A DNA stretch of 64,000 nt from an uncultured Saprospiraceae bacterium (lineage in GTDB: Bacteria; Bacteroidota; Bacteroidia; Chitinophagales; Saprospiraceae). A program made the translations under genes and the position numbers. This document shows, piece by piece, positions 4,981 to 60,744 of the stretch. The stretch lies in the NCBI GenBank assembly GCA_937929945.1, contig CALFUK010000030.1:1-64000 (forward strand), in the 5' to 3' direction. The number at the start of each line of letters is the position of its first letter. The first letter of the stretch is position 1. The notes below the pieces were generated by a model, which made no database searches, was not told where the DNA came from, and saw only the letters and a program-made list of their open reading frames with translations.

Positions 4981-5035
4981 CCCATAATTAATATTATGTT
5001 AAATAGAGAAATGACGCGCCCCTTATGCCAAAGAG

Positions 5036-5641
5036 AACTCAGATCACTCATAACTCATCACTCAAAAACTCATAACTCCTCTGCTTGGAACTCAGATCAC
5101 TCATAACTCATTACTCAAAAACTTATAACTCCTCTGCTTGGAACTCAGATCACTCATAACTCATCACTCAAAAACTTATAACTCCTCTGCTTGGAACTCA
5201 GATCACTCATAACTCATCACTCAAAAACTCATAACTCTACTGCTTGGCCAGATACTGAAACAAGTTCAGCATGACGCGCGCCCAGATCACTCATAACTCA
5301 TCACTCAAAAACTTATAACTCCTCTGCTTGGAACTCAGATCACTCATGACTCATCACTAAAAAACTCATAGCTCCTCTGTCCGGCCAGATACTGAAACAA
5401 GTTCAGCATGACGGGCGAATTTCAAGTAAAGCATGATGCGCCCCTTTTGCCAAAGAGAACTCAGATCACTCATGACTCATCACTAAAAAACTTATAACTC
5501 TACTGCTTGGCCAGATACTGAAACAAGTTCAGTATGACGCGCCCCTTTTGCCAAAGTAAACTCAGATCACTCATAACTCATTACTCAAAAACTCATAGCT
5601 CCTCTGTACGGTCAGATACTGAAACAAGTTCAGTATGACGC
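5036..5641. repeat. Composite array of 53-bp and about 30-bp repeats
   Basis: Unit A (AACTCAGATCACTCATAACT..., ending CTGCTTGG) is exactly 53 bp. It occurs four times head to tail at 5036, 5089, 5142 and 5195, again as a 49-bp copy at 5283, and as full copies at 5332, 5458 and 5559. Unit B (starting CCAGATACTGAAACAAGTTC, about 30 bp) follows A copies at 5248, 5385, 5511 and 5612. A short unit C (GCGCCCCTTTTGCCAAAG) precedes A at 5458 and 5559; a variant precedes the first copy. Unit B resembles the dispersed intergenic repeats common in Bacteroidota, whose reverse complement would translate as HTELVSVSD. No protein is encoded. Confidence 0.9.
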
Positions 5642-5691
5642 GCGAATTTCGTAACTCTACGGAATAGCAGAAACAAAAACCAATGGCTTGC

Positions 5692-17367: not shown

Positions 17368-17464
17368 ATGAACTGTCTAACGCGCCGTTAATTAAGACAC
17401 CCAAGTGGATGATTAAACTTAGTTACGTGCTGTGAGGCATTCATTTTCAAAAAAAAATAAACAG
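17368..17464 (+). repeat. 94-bp leader element, copy A (ahead of susD)
   Basis: This is a copy of the dispersed leader element also seen at 55243-55429, 58578-58686 and 59273-59460. Shared core: TTAATTAAGACACCCAAGTG, then GATGATTAAACTTAGTTA and a GGCATTC stretch. It begins with ATG, contains a mini-ORF of seven codons (MNCLTRR), and ends exactly at the susD start codon. It widens the susC-susD gap to 222 bp, when such pairs are usually nearly adjacent. Confidence 0.8.
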
Positions 17465-18883
17465 ATGAAAGAAATAAATAAATTAGTGCTCCTTGTCATA
17501 GCCATCTGCCTGAGCTCATGTGGTGAAGACTTCCTGAGTCCTGATCCTGTATCAGCCGTCAGTGCAGCAGGATACTTTGAGACAGAAGCACAGCTCGAGA
17601 CCGGCGTCATCAATATGTATGACGGTCTACAAGGTGAGAATACGACAGGTAATAACTCCAATCGTGGAGTTCAACTGGAGTTCTACCTGACAGAAATGAG
17701 AAGTGATAATACACGCACCAAAAGCAGTGAAGGTGAAGCTGCTCAGTTTGAAAATTACACCATCGAATCGAATAATGGAATCATAGCCGATTACTACAGA
17801 AGTATGTATGGCATAATCTTCAGAGCCAATACCGTCTTGGAGAATTTGGACGTAGCATCTTCAGCCGTCGCAGCCCAGTTTGAGGGTGAGGCAAAATTTG
17901 TACGAGCATACGCCTATTTTCAGTTAGTCAGACTTTATGGTGACGTACCCCTAATCGATCAAGTGGTCAGCCCTCTCGATACCGAAAAGCAGTTTACCAG
18001 AGTCAGCACCGATCAAGTCTATAACCTGATCATTAGTGATCTGCAGACTGCGGCAGCTAATCTAGAAAAGCGAAATACCACCAGAGCCTCTAAGGCTGCA
18101 GCTCAGGGTCTCCTTGCTAAAGTACAGCTGACCCGTGGTAACTACAGCGAGGCGAGATCACTGTGTGAAAGTGTTGTCGGCAGCGGCTATTCTCTACAAA
18201 CTAATTTTCAAGACGTCTTCTATAATGAAGGTAATGATGAAGTGATTTTTGCGATTGGCTATATATCTGATGATAATAATGACTCACAGAATTTTTCTGC
18301 TGAATTTCTAAATGCCGTAGGCAGAACTACGGGTGTCAACTATCCGACTGACGAAGCTGTGGCAGCGCTGGATGAGCTGGGAGGTAACCGTGCAGCCTAC
18401 TCATACCGAGTGGATGCCTTACAGCCGATACATCATCAAGTGGTCAAGTACCTGCCTAATGGAGACGAAGCTCTGGGCATAGCTCCTACCTCTGGCGACC
18501 CTACCTTAGCAGGAAATGATTGGATCGTCCTCCGATATGCGGATGTACTACTTATGCATGTCGAAGCGATCATGGGTGAGTCTGGCATGACCAATGATCC
18601 AGCCGCACTTGCCTCATTCCAAGCTGTGAGAGACAGAGCGGGACTGACGGAGACTGTTCAGCTGATTACCAAAGAAGACCTATTGAATGAAAGACGTGTG
18701 GAGCTGGCATTTGAAAATCACCGCCTCTTTGACCTCATCAGATTTGGCGTTGCTCAGAATGTGCTGTCAGAATTTTCAGCTAACAATGGTTTCGCATTTA
18801 CTGCTACTGATCTTTTACTACCCATCCCAGATGGCGAAATCGGACTCAGCAATGGAGTACTCACCCAAAATCCAGGGTATTAA
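17465..18883 (+). CDS. SusD/RagB-type glycan-binding lipoprotein
   Basis: This is the surface lid lipoprotein partner of SusC. ATG at 17465 gives MKEINKLVLLVIAICLSSC, a clean lipoprotein signal with the lipid-bearing Cys at 19. The GTG at 17432 lies inside a repeat and is unlikely to be used. Typical SusD features follow: EDFLSPDP, FEGEAKFVRAYAYFQLVRLYGDVPL (SusD TPR-like helices), WIVLRYADVLLMHVEA, and the C-terminal LLNERRVELAFENHRLFDLIRFG. It has normal length. It is predicted to bind alginate oligomers, based on its neighbours. Confidence 0.95.
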   Translation: MKEINKLVLLVIAICLSSCGEDFLSPDPVSAVSAAGYFETEAQLETGVINMYDGLQGENTTGNNSNRGVQLEFYLTEMRSDNTRTKSSEGEAAQFENYTIESNNGIIADYYRSMYGIIFRANTVLENLDVASSAVAAQFEGEAKFVRAYAYFQLVRLYGDVPLIDQVVSPLDTEKQFTRVSTDQVYNLIISDLQTAAANLEKRNTTRASKAAAQGLLAKVQLTRGNYSEARSLCESVVGSGYSLQTNFQDVFYNEGNDEVIFAIGYISDDNNDSQNFSAEFLNAVGRTTGVNYPTDEAVAALDELGGNRAAYSYRVDALQPIHHQVVKYLPNGDEALGIAPTSGDPTLAGNDWIVLRYADVLLMHVEAIMGESGMTNDPAALASFQAVRDRAGLTETVQLITKEDLLNERRVELAFENHRLFDLIRFGVAQNVLSEFSANNGFAFTATDLLLPIPDGEIGLSNGVLTQNPGY

Positions 18884-39811: not shown

Positions 39812-40165
39812 CAGATTTCTTAAATATTGCTTAAATGTAAACTAAGTACAACCCTTTCTTCATACCTGCTTGTTAAGCAATTTATTGAATAAATTTTTAA
39901 CCAGCCTGATATGATTAGGACAATCTGCTGGATATCATATCTTTACTGTCCTATTATTATAAAATGATAAATTTCACGATTCGTCTATGAGGTCAATAAT
40001 AATGACACCTAAGAGTTCCCTTTAGCTTACTTACGTACACATGGGTATTGCAACCTACAGTATTAATCTATGACATAAGTAAAAGGTAGATCGATAAGGT
40101 ACGAAAGCGAATGATTAAGCTCCATATATTGAGCAATAGACTTTGAGTGACTAAAAATTACAAAC
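39812..40165. other. Divergent intergenic region, no clear element
   Basis: This 354-bp gap between the DUF6089-like and S8 peptidase genes is AT-rich and must hold both promoters. I see a GATATCATATC inverted repeat near 39931 and a TATCTTTA near it, but no full promoter match and no coding sequence. Confidence 0.35.
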
Positions 40166-53905: not shown

Positions 53906-54253
53906 TCGAATTAGATAAAAAACTTGTACGGTTGAGTATTCATCAACAAGTGTTTACATTCAAATGTTTGAATTCTAAGAAGAGTTTACAAGCTTCAAAT
54001 TACAGCTTCCAATCGCCTACTTGAGTGACCTGTTTATTTACGCCATAAACGGTTTACTTGTTTAGATTGTAATCTATAGTTCAGTCTACAATAACGAATT
54101 CTAACCATCCCTATCGGAGTTATTGTAATCTATATCACAAGCTTTTCTGGATTGATTCTCTGCTGGAAGACTTGCTGCAGACGCTGAAATAGGTTAAAAA
54201 ATTTGATATATTATTATATAATCATATCTTAAATTTTTGTTTAAAAAAGAACT
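53906..54253 (+). promoter_or_regulatory. Leader of histidine kinase gene with inverted repeats
   Basis: This 348-bp gap has no gene. TAGATTGTAATCTA (54063-54076) is an inverted repeat with a two-base centre. TACAATAAC (54087-54095) and GTTATTGTA (54119-54127) form a perfect 9-bp stem around 23 bases. ATTGTAATCTATA occurs twice directly (54066 and 54122). These overlapping repeats look like a regulator-binding region or a structured leader. Confidence 0.45.
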
Positions 54254-55222
54254 GTGATTCCCCAACACCTGCAAGCGTTAGCAGACTATATAAGTCAAAT
54301 CGATAAGCTCACATCTGAAGAGAGATCCACCATCAACGGATACATCAGCAAACTCAAAGGTGAGTCAGAAAGCAATCATTTTAAGCACAGCAATACCGAG
54401 AAAGATCGGAAACTTGTCATCAGCTATCTGCAGAACACCATAGAAGACTTAGAGAAAAACCATCAACAATTAGAAGAGGCAAACGGTCTATTATCCGATC
54501 AAAATCTTATCATCGACAATCACCTGAATAAGCTAGTCGAAGCTTATCAAGAACTAGAACAGTTCACCTACATAGCCTCTCATGATCTAAAGGCCCCCCT
54601 TCGCACAATCGGATCCTACAGCCAACTTCTTAAAACACGGTACGCAGAAAATCTCGATGAGAAAGCCCTGCAATATCTTAATCTTATGATTAGCTCGGTG
54701 ACGAAGCTCACTCAAGTCATTGATGATTCGCTGAAATTCTCGAGTATTGGCAAAGATTCCCTAAATAATGCCAGCTACCACGACCTCAATCAAATCATAG
54801 ATATCGTCAAACAAAACTTACAACAAGAGATACATACCACAGGAGCCCTCATACACTACCAGGACCTCCCGAAAATATACGGTAAACAATCAAGCCTGAT
54901 CCTGCTCTTTGAACAGCTACTGCAGAATGCTATTAAATTCAGGACGGCCTCCGCACCGACTATCCTGATTACCAGTCATGTGACGCATGAGCTTACGGAG
55001 ATCAGTATCATCGATAACGGACGAGGTATAGATCAGAAATACTGGAAGAAAATTTTTAATCCCTTTCAAAAATTAGACGCCACTGATATGCCTGGGACAG
55101 GTATTGGCTTAGCTCTTTGTAAGAAGATTGTCACTCTCTATGGTGGCAATATCACCTGCCAGTCAGAACCAGGTAAAGGCAGTACATTTACGCTCGCATT
55201 CAAAAAACGTATGCCCAGCTAA
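54254..55222 (+). CDS. Soluble sensor histidine kinase
   Basis: This two-component kinase has 322 residues. The N-terminal 100 residues are a helical/coiled-coil segment without membrane helices or PAS domain. The HisKA phosphoacceptor is His110 (YIASHDLKAPLR). The ATPase part shows the N box (LLQNAIKFR), G1 (DNGRGID) and G2 (GTGIGLALCKKIV). GTG at 54254 is the only good start. Without membrane helices it must be cytoplasmic and receive its signal from a partner. No response regulator is adjacent. The family relationship is to phytochrome-like and bacteriophytochrome-type kinases. Confidence 0.88.
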   Translation: MIPQHLQALADYISQIDKLTSEERSTINGYISKLKGESESNHFKHSNTEKDRKLVISYLQNTIEDLEKNHQQLEEANGLLSDQNLIIDNHLNKLVEAYQELEQFTYIASHDLKAPLRTIGSYSQLLKTRYAENLDEKALQYLNLMISSVTKLTQVIDDSLKFSSIGKDSLNNASYHDLNQIIDIVKQNLQQEIHTTGALIHYQDLPKIYGKQSSLILLFEQLLQNAIKFRTASAPTILITSHVTHELTEISIIDNGRGIDQKYWKKIFNPFQKLDATDMPGTGIGLALCKKIVTLYGGNITCQSEPGKGSTFTLAFKKRMPS

Positions 55223-55242
55223 GTCACATTAAAATCCTACGC

Positions 55243-55429
55243 ATGAAACGTCTATGCACAGATAATTAAGACACCAAAGTGGTTGATTAAACTTAGTTAT
55301 TTGCAGATTGGCATTTCGCCCTGAAATTTAAACATATGAAACGCCTATGACGTAGATAACTAAGACACCCAAGTGGATGAGTAAACTTAGTTATATGCTG
55401 ATCGGCATTTCGCCCTAAAATTTAAACTT
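55243..55429 (+). repeat. 94-bp leader element, tandem copies B1 and B2
   Basis: Copy B1 is 55243-55335 and copy B2 is 55336-55429. Each starts with ATGAAACG and contains GACACC(C/A)AAGTGG, then TAAACTTAGTTA, GGCATTTCGCCCT and AAATTTAAAC. Each has a mini-ORF (MKRLCTDN in B1, MKRL in B2). B2 ends exactly at the ATG of the BstA-like gene. In B2, ATAACTAAG and CTTAGTTAT form a perfect 9-bp inverted repeat. Confidence 0.88.
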
Positions 55430-55951
55430 ATGAAACAATACCCCATAGGTAAATTCAAAATACCGAAGATGGTAGATCATAACTCCATAAAGTCATGGAT
55501 CAAAGAGATCGAAGAGCAGCCTAAAAAGCTAAAATACATCTGTAATAAACTTTCTGAAAGCGAACTAAACTATCAATACCGAACGGGTGGCTGGAACATC
55601 AGACAGGTCATCCACCATCTAGCAGACAGTCATATCAATAGCTATGTCAGATATAAGTGGACACTGACAGAAGAGACCCCACTCATCAAAGCATATGATG
55701 AAGTATCTTGGGCGACTCTTCCAGATTATGAGGCACCTGTCGATATCTCACTGGCGCTACTAGAAGCACTCCATCGCAGGTGGACGCTTCTGCTCCATAG
55801 GATGGTTCCCTCAGACTTCGAGCGTAAATTCATTCATCCAGAGACTAACAATCAAATATCTTTAGGCTCTCTCACCAGCATGTATGCCTGGCATGGTAAT
55901 CATCATATAGCTCATGTCGAACTTGCTTTGGAAGAGAAGATCGTAGAATAA
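55430..55951 (+). CDS. BstA/YfiT-like DinB-fold thiol transferase
   Basis: This 173-residue four-helix DinB-superfamily protein resembles bacillithiol S-transferase BstA (YfiT). The metal ligands are visible: His63 in IHHLADSH and His158/His162 in WHGNHHIAH. N-terminal YPIGKFKIP is typical for the YfiT branch. It may conjugate electrophiles with a low-molecular-weight thiol; which thiol this organism uses is unknown. Two tandem leader elements lie directly upstream and end at its start codon. Confidence 0.88.
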   Translation: MKQYPIGKFKIPKMVDHNSIKSWIKEIEEQPKKLKYICNKLSESELNYQYRTGGWNIRQVIHHLADSHINSYVRYKWTLTEETPLIKAYDEVSWATLPDYEAPVDISLALLEALHRRWTLLLHRMVPSDFERKFIHPETNNQISLGSLTSMYAWHGNHHIAHVELALEEKIVE

Positions 55952-56044
55952 AAGTAAAGCACTCTTTACAAAATTTACACAGCACAGATAAATTGCTGAT
56001 TTTATACTTTAATGAATACCAGTTTGATTAGCTTTTAGATTGAC

Positions 56045-56329
56045 ATGACCTATACAGAATTCACAGCCACGATACAGCACAGCGGAGATGAAGTAAATGA
56101 CCCCATCCTACGAGCACTACGCTTAGATGCGCAGGGAGACTGGTCTGCAGCTCACCAGATTATAGACGGGATGCCTGGTGATGACGCTGCCTGGGTCCAT
56201 GCCTATCTCCATCGGAAAGAAGGTGATATGTGGAATGCAGACTATTGGTATCGTCAAGCTGCTCGGACACGACCACAATCATCACTGCAAGAAGAATGGG
56301 AATCACTGGTCAGACATTTCACAACTTAA
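56045..56329 (+). CDS. Conserved small TPR-like protein
   Basis: This 94-residue protein of a widespread uncharacterised family has two helical hairpins: DPILRALRLDAQGDWSAAHQ, then AAWVHAYLHRKEGDMWNADY followed by WYRQA. The pattern is like one and a half TPR repeats. No signal peptide is present, so it is cytoplasmic. It lies between the BstA-like and PhoD-like genes. Its function is unknown, and a role as an adaptor is only a guess. Confidence 0.75.
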   Translation: MTYTEFTATIQHSGDEVNDPILRALRLDAQGDWSAAHQIIDGMPGDDAAWVHAYLHRKEGDMWNADYWYRQAARTRPQSSLQEEWESLVRHFTT

Positions 56330-56348
56330 GCTCCCAAAATAAAGACAA

Positions 56349-57404
56349 ATGAAGATATTTCTACACCTGATATTATTAGTTGGCATAGTCGCTGCTTGCA
56401 AACCCAAGGCAGAAAGCCCCGCAGATACAGCAGAGATCTCCAGTATTCCGGCTGAAGCCCCGAAAGAAGGTGATGTCATCATTAGTTTTGGCTCCTGTAA
56501 TAAGCAAGACAGTGAGCAGGTCCTGTGGGACGATATCAATCAAGAATCATCTGACATGTGGATCTGGCTCGGCGATAACATCTATGGAGACAGCGAAGAT
56601 CCCGCAGTGCTTTCTGAGAAATATGAGATGCAACTGCAAAACCAAGAATATCAAACACTACTGCGAAGCACACCCATCGTCGGTACTTGGGATGATCACG
56701 ACTATGGTAAGAATGATGCTGGAAAAGAACTGGCATCGAAAAAAATAAGTCGAGACCTCCTCTTCCAATTCTTAGATCTCGATAAGTCAAATCCAGCATG
56801 GGAGCGCGAAGGCGCATATACCGCACACGATCTGGATAAAAATGGCATTAAGATCAAGGTGATACTGCTGGATAGTCGCTACTTCAGAGATGCCGTGCAT
56901 AAGAAAAATGGCAGGTACAAAGCATCAGTCGGAGCGGACATCTTAGGAGAAGCACAGTGGACCTGGCTGGACAGCCTTTTGACTCGTAATGATGCTGATG
57001 TACACCTAATAGCCAATGGCATCCAGATCATCGCTGAAGACCATAAATATGAGAAATGGGCTAACTTCCCCGCAGCGCGTCAGCGACTCTTCGCATTACT
57101 CCAAACCAAAAATGTGAATCGTCCCATCTTGATGAGCGGTGACAGACATTTGTCAGAGCTGTCTGCCATCCAGTTAGAAGGCCTAGAGCTACCTCTCTAT
57201 GATATTACCTCCTCGGGACTGACCCACAGCTACCGTAACTATTCAGGTGAGAAAAACCAGCACCGAATCGGCGAAGTCACAGCGACTAAGAGCTATGGAG
57301 TCTTAGTCCTAAACCAGACAGGTAAGGATTCGATTCGTGTCGAATTACGATTTATGGGTGACGGCAGAAAAATTTTACAATCGTTTCAGCTTTTCCCCGC
57401 CTAA
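56349..57404 (+). CDS. PhoD-like phosphatase/phosphodiesterase, lipoprotein
   Basis: This 351-residue metallophosphatase has the PhoD pattern: SFGSCNKQ, WIWLGDNIYGD, GTWDDHDYGKND and MSGDRHLSE supply the metal ligands. The signal peptide ends in a lipobox (IVAAC, Cys17). It lacks the extra N-terminal domain of B. subtilis PhoD, and belongs to the shorter type often found in Bacteroidota. The substrate could be phosphodiesters from teichoic acids, lipids or nucleic acids. It starts 19 bp after the small TPR-like gene. Confidence 0.9.
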   Translation: MKIFLHLILLVGIVAACKPKAESPADTAEISSIPAEAPKEGDVIISFGSCNKQDSEQVLWDDINQESSDMWIWLGDNIYGDSEDPAVLSEKYEMQLQNQEYQTLLRSTPIVGTWDDHDYGKNDAGKELASKKISRDLLFQFLDLDKSNPAWEREGAYTAHDLDKNGIKIKVILLDSRYFRDAVHKKNGRYKASVGADILGEAQWTWLDSLLTRNDADVHLIANGIQIIAEDHKYEKWANFPAARQRLFALLQTKNVNRPILMSGDRHLSELSAIQLEGLELPLYDITSSGLTHSYRNYSGEKNQHRIGEVTATKSYGVLVLNQTGKDSIRVELRFMGDGRKILQSFQLFPA

Positions 57405-57527
57405 GTCATTGTATTATTGTCTTAAGCGGTCTTAGCTAGAGTCAGTGAGGTGGATTGCCTAGACAGCTTAAAACAAAATTTAACTTTGACATTCACAGCA
57501 GAACTGATTATCTAAAATCGTATTTGT

Positions 57528-58490
57528 ATGAAATGGGGACTTATAGCGTGTGGAAGAATCGCACAAAAATTTATCGCGTCACTTGGGACAGTTCCCGAAG
57601 CGACACTGAAGGCCATTGCCTCTCGATCCAATGCAGAATCTCTGCGTGAGCAATACGCATCAATAGACATACACGACAACTATGAAGCTGTATATGATGA
57701 TCCAGAGGTAGACATCGTATACATCAGCAATACGCACAACTACCATAAAGAAAATGTCCTTAAAGCACTACATGCGGGTAAACACGTACTGTGTGAAAAG
57801 CCCATGGGCATCTCAGCTGCTGATGTGGCAGAGATGATCTCTTTGGCCCGAGACAAAGAATTATTTCTGATGGAAGCGATCTGGACGAGGTTTTTACCCG
57901 CTTACAATCGCATGAAGGAGATCGTAGCTTCAGGGGTCATCGGTGAGGTACAGCAGATTCAAGCTAACTTCTCATTCAATGCCCGAGGATTTGGTCCAGA
58001 TAATCGGCTGAACAACCCAGCCTTAGCTGGAGGTGCCATTTGGGATGTCGGCATCTACCCCATCTCTCTCGCGATAGATTTGTATGATGAGGCACCACAT
58101 GAAGTGATTGCTCGTGGCGTTCTTTCAGATGATAATGTCGATCTGAGAGCTTCGATGTTGTTTAGCTTTTCTGATCAGCGACATGCCCAGCTCTTTTGTG
58201 GCATCGATCTGGAGACGCAGTATGACGCTGTGATCTCTGGGACTAAAGGCTGGATCAGACTCCCAAAATTTTGGTGTGGCCAGGCTATCGAAGTGAACCA
58301 TGATGATCAGAAAGAAAATCTACTACTTCCTATGGATGAGCCGACTAGCTTCTCTTATGAGATCAAGGCCTGCTACGAAGCTATTGCGGAAGGAAAAATA
58401 GAGCACCATAAGATGAGTCATCATCACAGTCAAATCATATCTGAAGTCATCGATGCCGCTCTCCATCAGATTAGAACGACCTCAAGATGA
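57528..58490 (+). CDS. Gfo/Idh/MocA-family NAD(P)-dependent oxidoreductase
   Basis: This 320-residue sugar oxidoreductase has an N-terminal Rossmann domain (GLIACGRIAQKF), the family motif CEKP (HVLCEKPMGIS), and a C-terminal alpha/beta domain with GGAIWDVGIYPISLA near 165-180. It resembles dimeric dihydrodiol/xylose dehydrogenases. The substrate is unknown. The 123-bp leader has faint similarity to the 94-bp elements nearby, but not enough to call a copy. Confidence 0.88.
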   Translation: MKWGLIACGRIAQKFIASLGTVPEATLKAIASRSNAESLREQYASIDIHDNYEAVYDDPEVDIVYISNTHNYHKENVLKALHAGKHVLCEKPMGISAADVAEMISLARDKELFLMEAIWTRFLPAYNRMKEIVASGVIGEVQQIQANFSFNARGFGPDNRLNNPALAGGAIWDVGIYPISLAIDLYDEAPHEVIARGVLSDDNVDLRASMLFSFSDQRHAQLFCGIDLETQYDAVISGTKGWIRLPKFWCGQAIEVNHDDQKENLLLPMDEPTSFSYEIKACYEAIAEGKIEHHKMSHHHSQIISEVIDAALHQIRTTSR

Positions 58491-58577
58491 CACTCTAAAG
58501 AATGCATCAGAGAAAGCACAAACAATTTAACCAATCAAACTGAGGAATTAACTTTCTGACTCCGTAGCCGTTATCAA

Positions 58578-58686
58578 ATGAAAAAGGTTTATGACATAGA
58601 TAATTAAGACTCCCGAGCGGATGATTGAACTTAGTATTTTGCTATTATTCATTCATTTCCAAAGTTTAACATAGGAATCGACAAAT
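58578..58686 (+). repeat. 94-bp leader element, diverged copy C
   Basis: This copy keeps ATAATTAAGACTCCCGAGCG, then GATGATTGAACTTAGTATT, but its last third is diverged. The tip CCAAGTGG of other copies is CCGAGCGG here, a paired change that keeps the two arms complementary. A mini-ORF of nine codons (MKKVYDIDN) starts at 58578. It ends at the start codon of the DUF4199 gene. Confidence 0.75.
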
Positions 58687-59169
58687 ATGAAGGAATATCG
58701 GACAGAGATTAAATGGGGATTGATCATGACAGCGAGTAGTATCATATGGGCTGTGATAGAGCGGCTCTTAGGATTCCACACCAGCAGAATAGCTGCTCAC
58801 TCACTCTTCTCCTATCTGTATATCGTTGTGGCGGTCATGCTATACTATGCGGCACTTCGAGAGATACGCCACACGACTCAGTATCGCATGAACTGGAGAC
58901 AGGGTATGATCTCAGGCATCATCATGGGTCTTGTCGTGATGATCTTAGCGCCAGTGACTCAGGCCATCATCCACCAGTTTATCTCGCCCGACTACTTTAC
59001 TAATGCGATCAAGCAGGCGGTAGACGCTGGCTATGTTTCACCAGATGATGCCCCTAAATACTTTAATCTCAGCTCCTACATGATGCAGTCGATGATCATC
59101 CCCATGCCCTTTGGAGCCTTAGTGAGCTCCATCATCGCATCATTCATGAAAAATAAAACTATCACTTAA
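58687..59169 (+). CDS. DUF4199 membrane protein
   Basis: This 160-residue protein has four hydrophobic segments (about 10-30, 40-60, 75-100 and 140-158) and the DUF4199 layout: MTASSIIWAVIERLLGFH, YYAALREIR and the long polar loop with DYFTNAIKQAVDAGYVSPDDA. It is an inner-membrane protein of unknown function, common in Bacteroidota. A diverged leader element lies upstream. Confidence 0.85.
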   Translation: MKEYRTEIKWGLIMTASSIIWAVIERLLGFHTSRIAAHSLFSYLYIVVAVMLYYAALREIRHTTQYRMNWRQGMISGIIMGLVVMILAPVTQAIIHQFISPDYFTNAIKQAVDAGYVSPDDAPKYFNLSSYMMQSMIIPMPFGALVSSIIASFMKNKTIT

Positions 59170-59272
59170 GTACCCGAACACTTCGCAGGCCTGAATATTC
59201 AGACAGATTTATCATGCATTCAAGCTTCATATCTAATCTTATTGATTAATTTACAATATCATAAGCCATCTA

Positions 59273-59460
59273 ATGAAAGGTCTATGACGTAGATAATTAA
59301 GACACCCAAGTGGATAAGTAAACTTAGTTATTTGCTGACAGGCATTTCGCCCTGAAATTTAAACATATGAAACGTCTATGACGTAGATAGTTAAGACACC
59401 CAACTGGATGAGTAAACTTAGCTATTTGCTGATCGGCATTTCGCCCTGAAATTTAAACAT
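59273..59460 (+). repeat. 94-bp leader element, tandem copies D1 and D2
   Basis: D1 is 59273-59366 and D2 is 59367-59460, each exactly 94 bp and about 90 percent identical by eye. Both begin ATGAAA and carry a four-codon mini-ORF (MKGL or MKRL) ending in TGA. They end AAATTTAAACAT. D2 ends at the ATG of the serine hydrolase gene. The central inverted repeat and the GGC-ATTTC-GCC hairpin are kept. Confidence 0.9.
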
Positions 59461-60744
59461 ATGAAATACCTACACATCGTCTTATTACTCAGCTTTCTCG
59501 CGTGTACCTCGACCCAAAAAGTAGCAGACTCGACCAGCGCCGAAGTAAGACAAGACATCCCTACTGCTGAGGTCGCTCCCTTAGTTCCAATGCAAGAGGT
59601 CTCCAACCACGGATTTTCCATGGACCGGCTTAAACGATTTGACGACTATCTGAATGCTGAGATAGAGGCTAACCGAATCCCTGGAGCAGTACTGCTCATC
59701 ACCCGAGAAGATGAAGAAGTCTATCACAAGAGCTATGGTGAAAAAGAAAAGGACTCAGGGGCATCGATGGCTAAAGATGAAATATTCTACATCCAATCCA
59801 TGACCAAACCTATCGTAAGCATAGCCTTCATGATGCTCTACGAAGAAGGACACTTTAATCTGACCGACCCCGTCAAGAAATACCTTCCACAATTTGACAA
59901 TATGAAGGTCGCTACCGAACACCAAGGAGATATGAAACTAGAAGATGCCAAGAGTGACATCACCATCAGTCAGCTACTCAGTCATACAGCAGGAATGTCT
60001 CACGGCTTAGGAGCGAGTGACTTGGACAAGAAGTATCTTCAGGCTCTATACTTCCAGCAACATGCAGATATAGAAGCCCGAGTCAATGTACTGCCCGATC
60101 TGCCATTAGTGGGTCAGCCTGGTGCACAGTGGTATTACAGCGCCTCGCCTGATGTATTGGCTCTACTCATAGAAAAATTCTCGGGTATGAATGCAGCTGA
60201 GTTCTTGCAGCAGCGGATCTTCGATCCATTGGGTATGGATGACACTGGCTATAACATTGCTCCAGCTAAAGAATCACGAAAAGCAGTACTCTATAACACC
60301 CAGCCAGATGGAACCTTAGTGAAGTCAGACCGCCAGACTCCAGCCTCTGGTCATACCATCTATGGCGGGACACATGGCCTCTTCTCCACAGCTAGTGACT
60401 ACATGAAGTTCTGTAAGATGCTGTTGAATCAAGGAGAAGTAGACGGGGAATACCTGATCGGTAGAAAGACCTTAGCGCTCATGACCAGCAATCACTTGAG
60501 CGATGATATCGAATATGCGGCGGGAGAAGGATTTGGCCTCGGCTTCGGTGTGATCACTGACTTAGCTAAGACGAAGGCACTTGCAAGTGAAGGTAATTAT
60601 TCATGGGGTGGAGCATTCAATACCTACTTCTTCGTGGACCCTTCTGAGGATCTTGCAGCCGTACTGATGATGCAGTTCAATCCATATACGGATCACTATG
60701 CTGATAAGCTCAGACAATTTGTATATCAGGCTTTAGTGGATTGA
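59461..60744 (+). CDS. Class C beta-lactamase-like serine hydrolase, lipoprotein
   Basis: This 427-residue protein of the beta-lactamase/transpeptidase family has the SxxK motif at 113-116 (SMTK). The YxN-like Tyr is in WYYSASPDV near 225, and the third motif is in GGTHGLFSTASDYMKF. The signal peptide ends in a lipobox (FLACT, Cys15). Such proteins are usually esterases or peptidases of the EstB type, rather than true beta-lactamases. Two leader elements end at its start. Confidence 0.9.
   Translation: MKYLHIVLLLSFLACTSTQKVADSTSAEVRQDIPTAEVAPLVPMQEVSNHGFSMDRLKRFDDYLNAEIEANRIPGAVLLITREDEEVYHKSYGEKEKDSGASMAKDEIFYIQSMTKPIVSIAFMMLYEEGHFNLTDPVKKYLPQFDNMKVATEHQGDMKLEDAKSDITISQLLSHTAGMSHGLGASDLDKKYLQALYFQQHADIEARVNVLPDLPLVGQPGAQWYYSASPDVLALLIEKFSGMNAAEFLQQRIFDPLGMDDTGYNIAPAKESRKAVLYNTQPDGTLVKSDRQTPASGHTIYGGTHGLFSTASDYMKFCKMLLNQGEVDGEYLIGRKTLALMTSNHLSDDIEYAAGEGFGLGFGVITDLAKTKALASEGNYSWGGAFNTYFFVDPSEDLAAVLMMQFNPYTDHYADKLRQFVYQALVD

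Follow-up and report, generated by a model that had tools for sequence, protein, structure and literature searches.

The window, a 64,000 nt stretch of contig C30 from the draft genome of an uncultured Saprospiraceae bacterium (G000; 5.07 Mb in 211 contigs), contains six copies of a repeat unit of around 94 bp, all on the forward strand, each beginning with ATG and each lying upstream of a gene. Four of them form two head-to-tail pairs. The first pair consists of a more diverged unit of 93 bp (55243-55335; 79 bits against a profile of the unit) and one of 94 bp (55336-55429; 93.4 bits) that abuts the ATG, at 55430, of a DinB_2-family gene, described as BstA-like in an earlier, sequence-only reading of this DNA. 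The second comprises two 94 bp units (59273-59366 and 59367-59460; 92.9 and 95.8 bits), and abuts the ATG at 59461 of a serine hydrolase gene of the Beta-lactamase family (PF00144). The remaining copies are single and diverged: that at 17368-17464 (58.6 bits) adjoins a susD-family gene (SusD_RagB/SusD-like_3) starting with the ATG at 17465, and that at 58578-58686 (49.5 bits, with the profile match at 58583-58669) ends likewise at the ATG, at 58687, of a DUF4199 gene. The core of the unit matches at 17394, 55268, 55362, 58606, 59299 and 59393, against a mean of 0.00 matches in 100 dinucleotide shuffles. The six copies, their 93-94 bp tandem period, the ATG at the head of every unit and the abutment of the last copy on the start codons at 17465, 55430 and 59461 had all been described in the sequence-only reading, and each of these points was borne out.

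The copy at 59367-59460 illustrates the layout of the unit. Its left part (59367-59414) bears a GAAAC....ATGA ... ATGATTA-type core, with GAGTA here replacing GATTA, which is kin to the left end of IS110-type elements. An inner stem-loop spans 59383-59429 (unit positions 17-63), and was the subject of a swapped-arm test on a phylum-wide set. It is followed by a variable 3' part with an A/T-rich tail (59430-59460), which ends AAACAT before the ATGAAA of the gene.

When the core was searched against the whole genome, as the sequence-only reading had proposed, it gave 168 matches with up to three mismatches and none for the reversed pattern; a 26-letter pattern from the 5' part of the unit gave 190 matches, again with none reversed. 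Arrays were analysed in approximately 412 kb, composed of the window and the stretches around the matches. These contain 233 profile hits, 183 of them of at least 60 bits, in 112 head-to-tail arrays of one to five units (35 singles, 41 pairs, 30 triples, four arrays of four and two of five). The start-to-start spacing of the 121 neighbours is 94 bp in 74 cases and 92-95 bp in 107. As contigs C25, C49, C102, C87 and C75 end within or just behind units, the true copy number may exceed this count. A unit before one and the same gene start marks the ends of C25 and C49 and the beginning of C102; hence the draft assembly is broken at these repeats.

The junction between units and genes

The 3' junction was judged in 91 arrays, namely those with a last unit of at least 60 bits that extends to its 3' end. 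The ATG behind the last unit opens an open reading frame (ORF) of at least 60 codons in 57 of these and a shorter one in 22; the contig ends first in seven, and there is no ATG within 14 nt in five. The junction reads ATGAAA in 74 of the 91, these being 51 of the 57 arrays with a longer ORF, 17 of the 22 with a shorter one, six of the seven at a contig end and none of the five without an ATG. By comparison, seven of the 42 window ORFs of at least 150 codons start with ATGAAA, and three of these (at 17465, 55430 and 59461) lie directly behind units. Since ATGAAA is frequent even at short ORFs, it belongs to the insertion site or to the element, with the start codon being a frequent, but not the sole, place of insertion. 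The earlier claim that the units end at start codons therefore holds for 57 of the 84 decided arrays and fails for the rest: it is true mostly, but not always.

None of the first 87 arrays was found inside an ORF of at least 90 codons. Seven genes behind arrays were scanned for domains, and belong to unrelated families. The first Pfam domain starts at residue 3 in an FGGY kinase, residue 2 in a semialdehyde dehydrogenase and residue 4 in a thiamine-pyrophosphate enzyme, so that the ATG behind the array looks like the native start in these cases, and the last unit is the DNA immediately upstream of the gene. The orientation of the units is fixed relative to ATGAAA; the presence of ATGAAA at both ends of a unit can be read either way, as insertion with or without a target duplication.

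Larger elements with IS110-type recombinase genes

In six genomes, represented by loci L305, L307, L253 and L257 and by genomes G424 and G203, the core forms the left end of an IS110-type recombinase gene. At L305 it lies just before the coding sequence of a 415 aa protein matching both DEDD_Tnp_IS110 (PF01548, 3.5e-29) and Transposase_20 (PF02371, 1.4e-24); at L307 it precedes a broken recombinase gene, and at L253 and L257, as judged by eye, genes cut by the contig end. The L305 protein has matches in 69 of 296 genomes. Its closest relative, encoded in G424 (L343; 73% identity over residues 4-310), also has the core as its left end, and three tandem units precede the element to which it belongs (by eye). 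The single PF01548 gene of G203 (L215) has the same left end. L215 and L343 undergo a change of frame at a shared A-rich position (following ...SAGKKK and SGGKKK, respectively), where L305 reads through; this could represent a programmed frameshift or two separate breaks. A relaxed pattern, applied to 30 loci found with the L305 protein and 10 PF01548 loci, detected the core only in G424, in G203 and at a decayed fragment in G320 (L363), which marks these as one subgroup of IS110 recombinases.

The larger elements of G203, L305 and G424 (1575, 1527 and 1534 bp, respectively) extend from ATGAAAC or ATGAAAT to the next ATGAAA, and are bounded in the same way as the unit, with ACAN before them and ACAN or TCAN at their end, followed by ATGAAA. 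Each sits between the upstream junction and ATGAAA in the unit's place, and by eye no 3' half-unit is left over; in G203, both the left core and the ACAN/ATGAAA junctions are common to the units and the element. The distance from the left end to the start codon is 68-96 nt in the three elements, and thus short, as in the IS1111 group. Also as in that group, the right end is longer, with 203 nt from stop codon to junction at L305 and 182-212 nt from the conserved part to the junction across all three.

These right ends align with one another, and are predicted to adopt a common two-domain consensus fold in which NATGAAA occurs at two aligned positions. In domain 1, N is G, C and G in L305, G203 and G424 respectively, the left junctions of which read CAG, CAC and CAG; in domain 2 it is C, T and G, with right junctions of CAC, CAT and CAG. 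The base before ATGAAA hence equals the junction base in six of six cases, a correspondence noticed after the fact, and the base after it in domain 1 (C, C and T) equals the left-end base in three of three. In the predicted fold, the site in domain 2 is free of pairing. The left guides of a bridge RNA are reported to base-pair with the bottom strand of both target and donor, a pairing that takes in the core (PMC11208160); the repeats of the junction base in the modelled right ends would be in line with such an RNA. A second report describes a mini-IS (insertion sequence) with a left end of 29 bp and a right end of 16 bp, moved by a transposase and a seekRNA that were both expressed outside the element (PMC11187229), which makes units of 94 bp plausible passengers.

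On the basis of these sequence comparisons, we consider it likely that the units are non-autonomous relatives of one IS110-family subgroup that occurs in Bacteroidota and neighbouring phyla, resembling miniature inverted-repeat transposable elements (MITEs) and moved in trans to ATGAAA. The larger elements would combine a short left end bearing the unit's 5' core, a DEDD recombinase gene and a long right end folding like a bridge RNA or seekRNA, and the recombinase and its guide RNA would together recognise ATGAAA. The short units would carry both ends and be moved by machinery supplied elsewhere. As ATGAAA is often a start codon followed by a lysine codon, insertions inside genes would be lost through selection, and a gene with an insertion at its start would keep its ATGAAA; surviving copies would thereby come to lie mostly directly before start codons, in place of the previous 5' leader. 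Repeated insertion at a single ATGAAA boundary would build head-to-tail arrays. The source of recombinase in the window genome would either have been lost or fall within an assembly gap.

A number of observations weigh against this proposal. The window genome has no detectable IS110 recombinase, with no match to PF02371, PF01548 or the L305 protein (6 of 10 candidates scored), and no right-end RNA was found in its analysed stretches. Elsewhere, G034 has units and no PF01548 match, G005 has units and two PF01548 genes that lack the core under the relaxed pattern, and in the congener G002 five PF01548 genes are accompanied by only one match to the unit, both weak and partial. Among the 30 loci found with the L305 protein, the core is visible only in L343 and in a fragment, L363, the others having been judged by the pattern and not by eye. 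The recombinase genes of G203 and G424 are recognised by PF01548 only, and both are frame-broken. Furthermore, the ATGAAA behind the larger elements opens 65 codons in G203, 43 in G424 and eight at L305, and subterminal inverted repeats of the IS1111 type (7-17 bp) are absent, the longest match in the outer 40 nt being 3-5 nt and not above shuffles. Within the right ends, the base after ATGAAA in domain 2 differs from the flank, the ATGAAA of domain 1 is partly paired in the predicted fold, and there are further ATGAA sequences, two in L305 and one in G424; among right-end remnants, L275 has an A where its right junction has a T, and L246 is mutated at the site matching the junction. Finally, no comparable empty site was found in the congeners, alignments to which are only 65-79% identical and thus too distant.

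Other explanations, unit structure and array growth

It is conceivable, but unlikely, that the units belong to the host as a repeat of older date and serve these IS110-type elements as a mere target. There is a precedent in Coxiella, where IS1111 is reported to have used a MITE in this way (PMC10969869). However, the elements of G203, L305 and G424 lie whole between the upstream junction and ATGAAA, where a unit would be, and by eye no 3' half of a unit follows them; moreover, in all six of the genomes listed above the recombinase gene has the core attached to its start.

We think it distinctly improbable that the units are primarily functional regulatory leaders, either RNA elements or promoter cassettes, recruited by many genes and kept for their effect on expression with mobility being secondary. 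The majority of decided arrays do lie exactly at the start of an ORF, and across the phylum the arms of the stem pair better with their own partners than with swapped ones. The consensus unit folds into a long hairpin, the inner stem of which (positions 17-29 with 51-63) is mostly kept within the genome, whereas the outer stem is not. Only the pair 24-56 clearly changes on both sides within the genome. Across the whole hairpin in 60 units, three pairs had two-sided changes against 4.3 in shuffled data, and 11 cells contained such a change against 6.7; RNAalifold returned no structure from 138 units. Hence covariation within the genome is weak. In the swapped-arm test on 38 non-redundant hits from across the phylum, the arms paired with their own partners at a mean of -6.0 kcal/mol, compared to -4.6 kcal/mol when swapped (z -4.8, with none of 2000 permutations as low), a signal to which the relatedness of the hits may add and in which the true pairing was better than the hit's median swap in only 23 of the 38. 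Matching changes in the two arms seem to have preserved the core hairpin throughout the phylum, but this hairpin may serve transposition. Positions 6-18 of the consensus, just inside the left end, form a perfect palindrome (ACGTC-TAT-GACGT) that is kept in some units of G034 and G005. No terminal inverted repeats were detected in either the unit consensus or the three larger elements.

A regulatory role would also fit the closer resemblance of the last unit to the consensus, relative to that of the first unit, which is seen in 39 of 58 arrays (p ~4e-6, Wilcoxon). On another reading this results from relaxed constraint on the upstream units, but the order of insertion accounts for it as well. 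Against such a role, 22 arrays lie at an ATG without a 60-codon ORF, at least five arrays lie between convergent genes, the seven scanned downstream genes are of unrelated families, and the two congeners lack the G000-type core. Because 17 of the 22 arrays at short ORFs still end in ATGAAA, the placement of the units is explained at least as well by an insertion specificity for this sequence. Of the two parts of the original interpretation, that of a mobile or recruited 5' leader is upheld by units that are dispersed, fixed in orientation, apparently inserted separately and adjoining the gene with their last copy; that of a regulatory RNA or promoter cassette is not.

The growth of arrays by local duplication, with copies spread through gene conversion and not by transposition, appears very improbable. 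Some neighbours are indeed 97-100% identical, such as those of one array on C39 (at 52778) and another on C123, and single cases may stem from gene conversion. Yet in a comparison of 181 units, weak ones included, only seven of 94 neighbouring pairs were closer to each other than to their best copy elsewhere, and the outer flanks of different arrays have no visible homology of the kind needed for conversion into new places. There are two main subfamilies of unit, split by the 3' part, and these are mixed in 40 of 90 typed neighbouring pairs, when by our own estimate about 45 would be expected for a random order. As neighbours are so rarely each other's closest copies, the arrays look to have been built by separate insertions, of which the latest would often lie next to the gene.

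It is scarcely credible that the units are repetitive extragenic palindrome (REP/REPIN)-like sequences, hairpins scattered over a genome for which an IS200/RAYT-type tyrosine transposase provides movement in trans: the 94 bp dispersed hairpins, the GTAG near the inner stem and the high copy number are reminiscent of these, but Y1_Tnp (PF01797) has no match in the genome, compared to matches in 5 of 14 control genomes, one orientation is kept within each array, and both site and orientation are fixed at ATGAAA.

Relatives in other genomes and comparison with known systems

The G000-type core itself has a narrow distribution. It was absent from 99 other genomes, two congeners included, and from a plasmid collection, and no exact match was present in collections of genome contigs and viral contigs, which may not include the window's own genome. 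The congeners (G001 and G002) gave no profile match in 20 sampled stretches totalling 329 kb, and among the upstream regions compared, no pair of 81 and one pair of 128 looked alike. In other genera of the same GTDB family, a model of the unit matched in five of 199 genomes, the window's own included, with 21 candidates scored per genome; a match in G027 has no ATGAAA behind it, and was left out of the count.

A mixed model (R2) gave matches in seven of the 10 genomes selected for it, with 19 matches lying in G203. As R2 was built with six sequences from G005, G034 and G203, these match by construction; the other G203 places were outside the model. G203 has a tandem pair of units spaced at 94 bp, and at three places a 135 bp variant precedes a 94 bp unit. 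Two chimeric units in this genome switch type right after ATGATTA, as if the 3' halves were exchangeable (variant and chimeric units at loci L218, L219, L220, L222 and L223). The 135 bp variant also occurs, with few differences, on a Saprospiraceae contig (L260), which makes Saprospiraceae the probable family of the window's source.

The architecture shared by these units is more widespread, a pattern representing it matching at least 109 stretches of genome contigs from Bacteroidota and neighbouring phyla, against a chance expectation that we estimate at about one, and single hits may be fortuitous. The 80 of these that are named are all from Bacteroidota or relatives, among which we take Melioribacteraceae, Chlorobiota and Cloacimonadota to belong, except for eight labelled 'Bacterium BMS3Abin03'. 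Of the 112 matches listed, 92 allowed a decision as to whether an ORF of at least 60 codons starts at the first ATGAA within 160 nt, and it does so in 41 of these, compared to 256 of 3,997 random positions. By eye, the tails of units from several Bacteroidales (L248, L263, L316, L321 and L331) show stems resembling CCCCGGGTTT and letters resembling ACCGTTTTGGC, and these units could constitute a separate subfamily.

No Rfam family scored above its gathering threshold in the window or in 20 of the at least 109 related loci, and the six matches returned for 55150-59600 under permissive settings all fell short of their gathering scores. The earlier statement that no named element matches is therefore correct with regard to Rfam, but the kinship to IS110-type elements was not foreseen. 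With the published IS110 and IS1111 elements that have bridge RNA or seekRNA (PMC11208160 and PMC11187229), the present set shares the family of recombinase encoded by the larger partners (PF01548, PF02371), the lack of detected terminal inverted repeats, a fixed orientation at a specific target, and a two-domain non-coding end, here a predicted fold, that repeats the junction sequence; in published assays, the element ends, transposase and RNA suffice for movement (PMC11187229). Unlike those elements, most copies here are only 94-135 bp long and lack both recombinase and long RNA end, around 190 pattern matches occur in one genome, many of which are arranged in tandem, a start-codon context serves as the target, and the left end has a conserved stem-loop. 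The subterminal repeats of IS1111 are also missing.

MITEs are similar in being short, non-autonomous copies of IS elements present in high numbers (PMC10969869). Neither the units nor the three larger elements have terminal inverted repeats, in which they differ from MITEs. Such repeats are characteristic of classical MITEs. Mycobacterial interspersed repetitive units (MIRUs) are often found in tandem. They have been reported to insert at start codons (PMC12548453), and so are alike as short, apparently mobile repeats in this position. However, MIRUs differ in sequence and phylum and are described as having an ORF coupled to the gene, whereas the units here keep no reading frame (by eye) and are linked to IS110 recombinases. 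No title on IS110-derived miniature elements at start codons was found in the literature covered, which excluded most subscription papers and bioRxiv preprints; the term 'start codon' is absent from the main text of PMC11208160 and occurs once, in the methods, in PMC11187229.

A broader, more tentative suggestion is that start codons across Bacteroidota and their relatives might act as attachment sites for an RNA-guided recombinase, with leaders as exchangeable cassettes: units bearing their own guide-like stem-loop would be inserted serially before genes, including those of core metabolism, rewriting the leader and leaving the protein untouched. IS110 recombinases are of wide interest as programmable tools for writing DNA, and around 190 short passengers at one short target would indicate how small the cargo can be, as well as providing a large natural record of target choice by a recombinase. 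The units suggest that mobile DNA can find a safe harbour at start codons. They also offer a testable origin for the turnover of leaders among bacterial genes, and could account for tandem leader repeats that are nameless in Rfam.

Two weak remnants of the unit are also present in the window, at 39978-40059 on the forward strand (22.1 bits) and 53966-54054 on the reverse strand (17.2 bits). Three further candidates for the unit, a hammerhead, an attC site and a conserved short peptide, were weighed by eye and dropped. The sole reverse transcriptase match found in the genome is a 500 aa protein with RVT_1 only (L121; contig C160, 916-2418, forward strand). A separate tandem repeat lies between ORFs at 5035-5643 of the window, and shows 53 bp units as well as periods of 137 and 101 bp.

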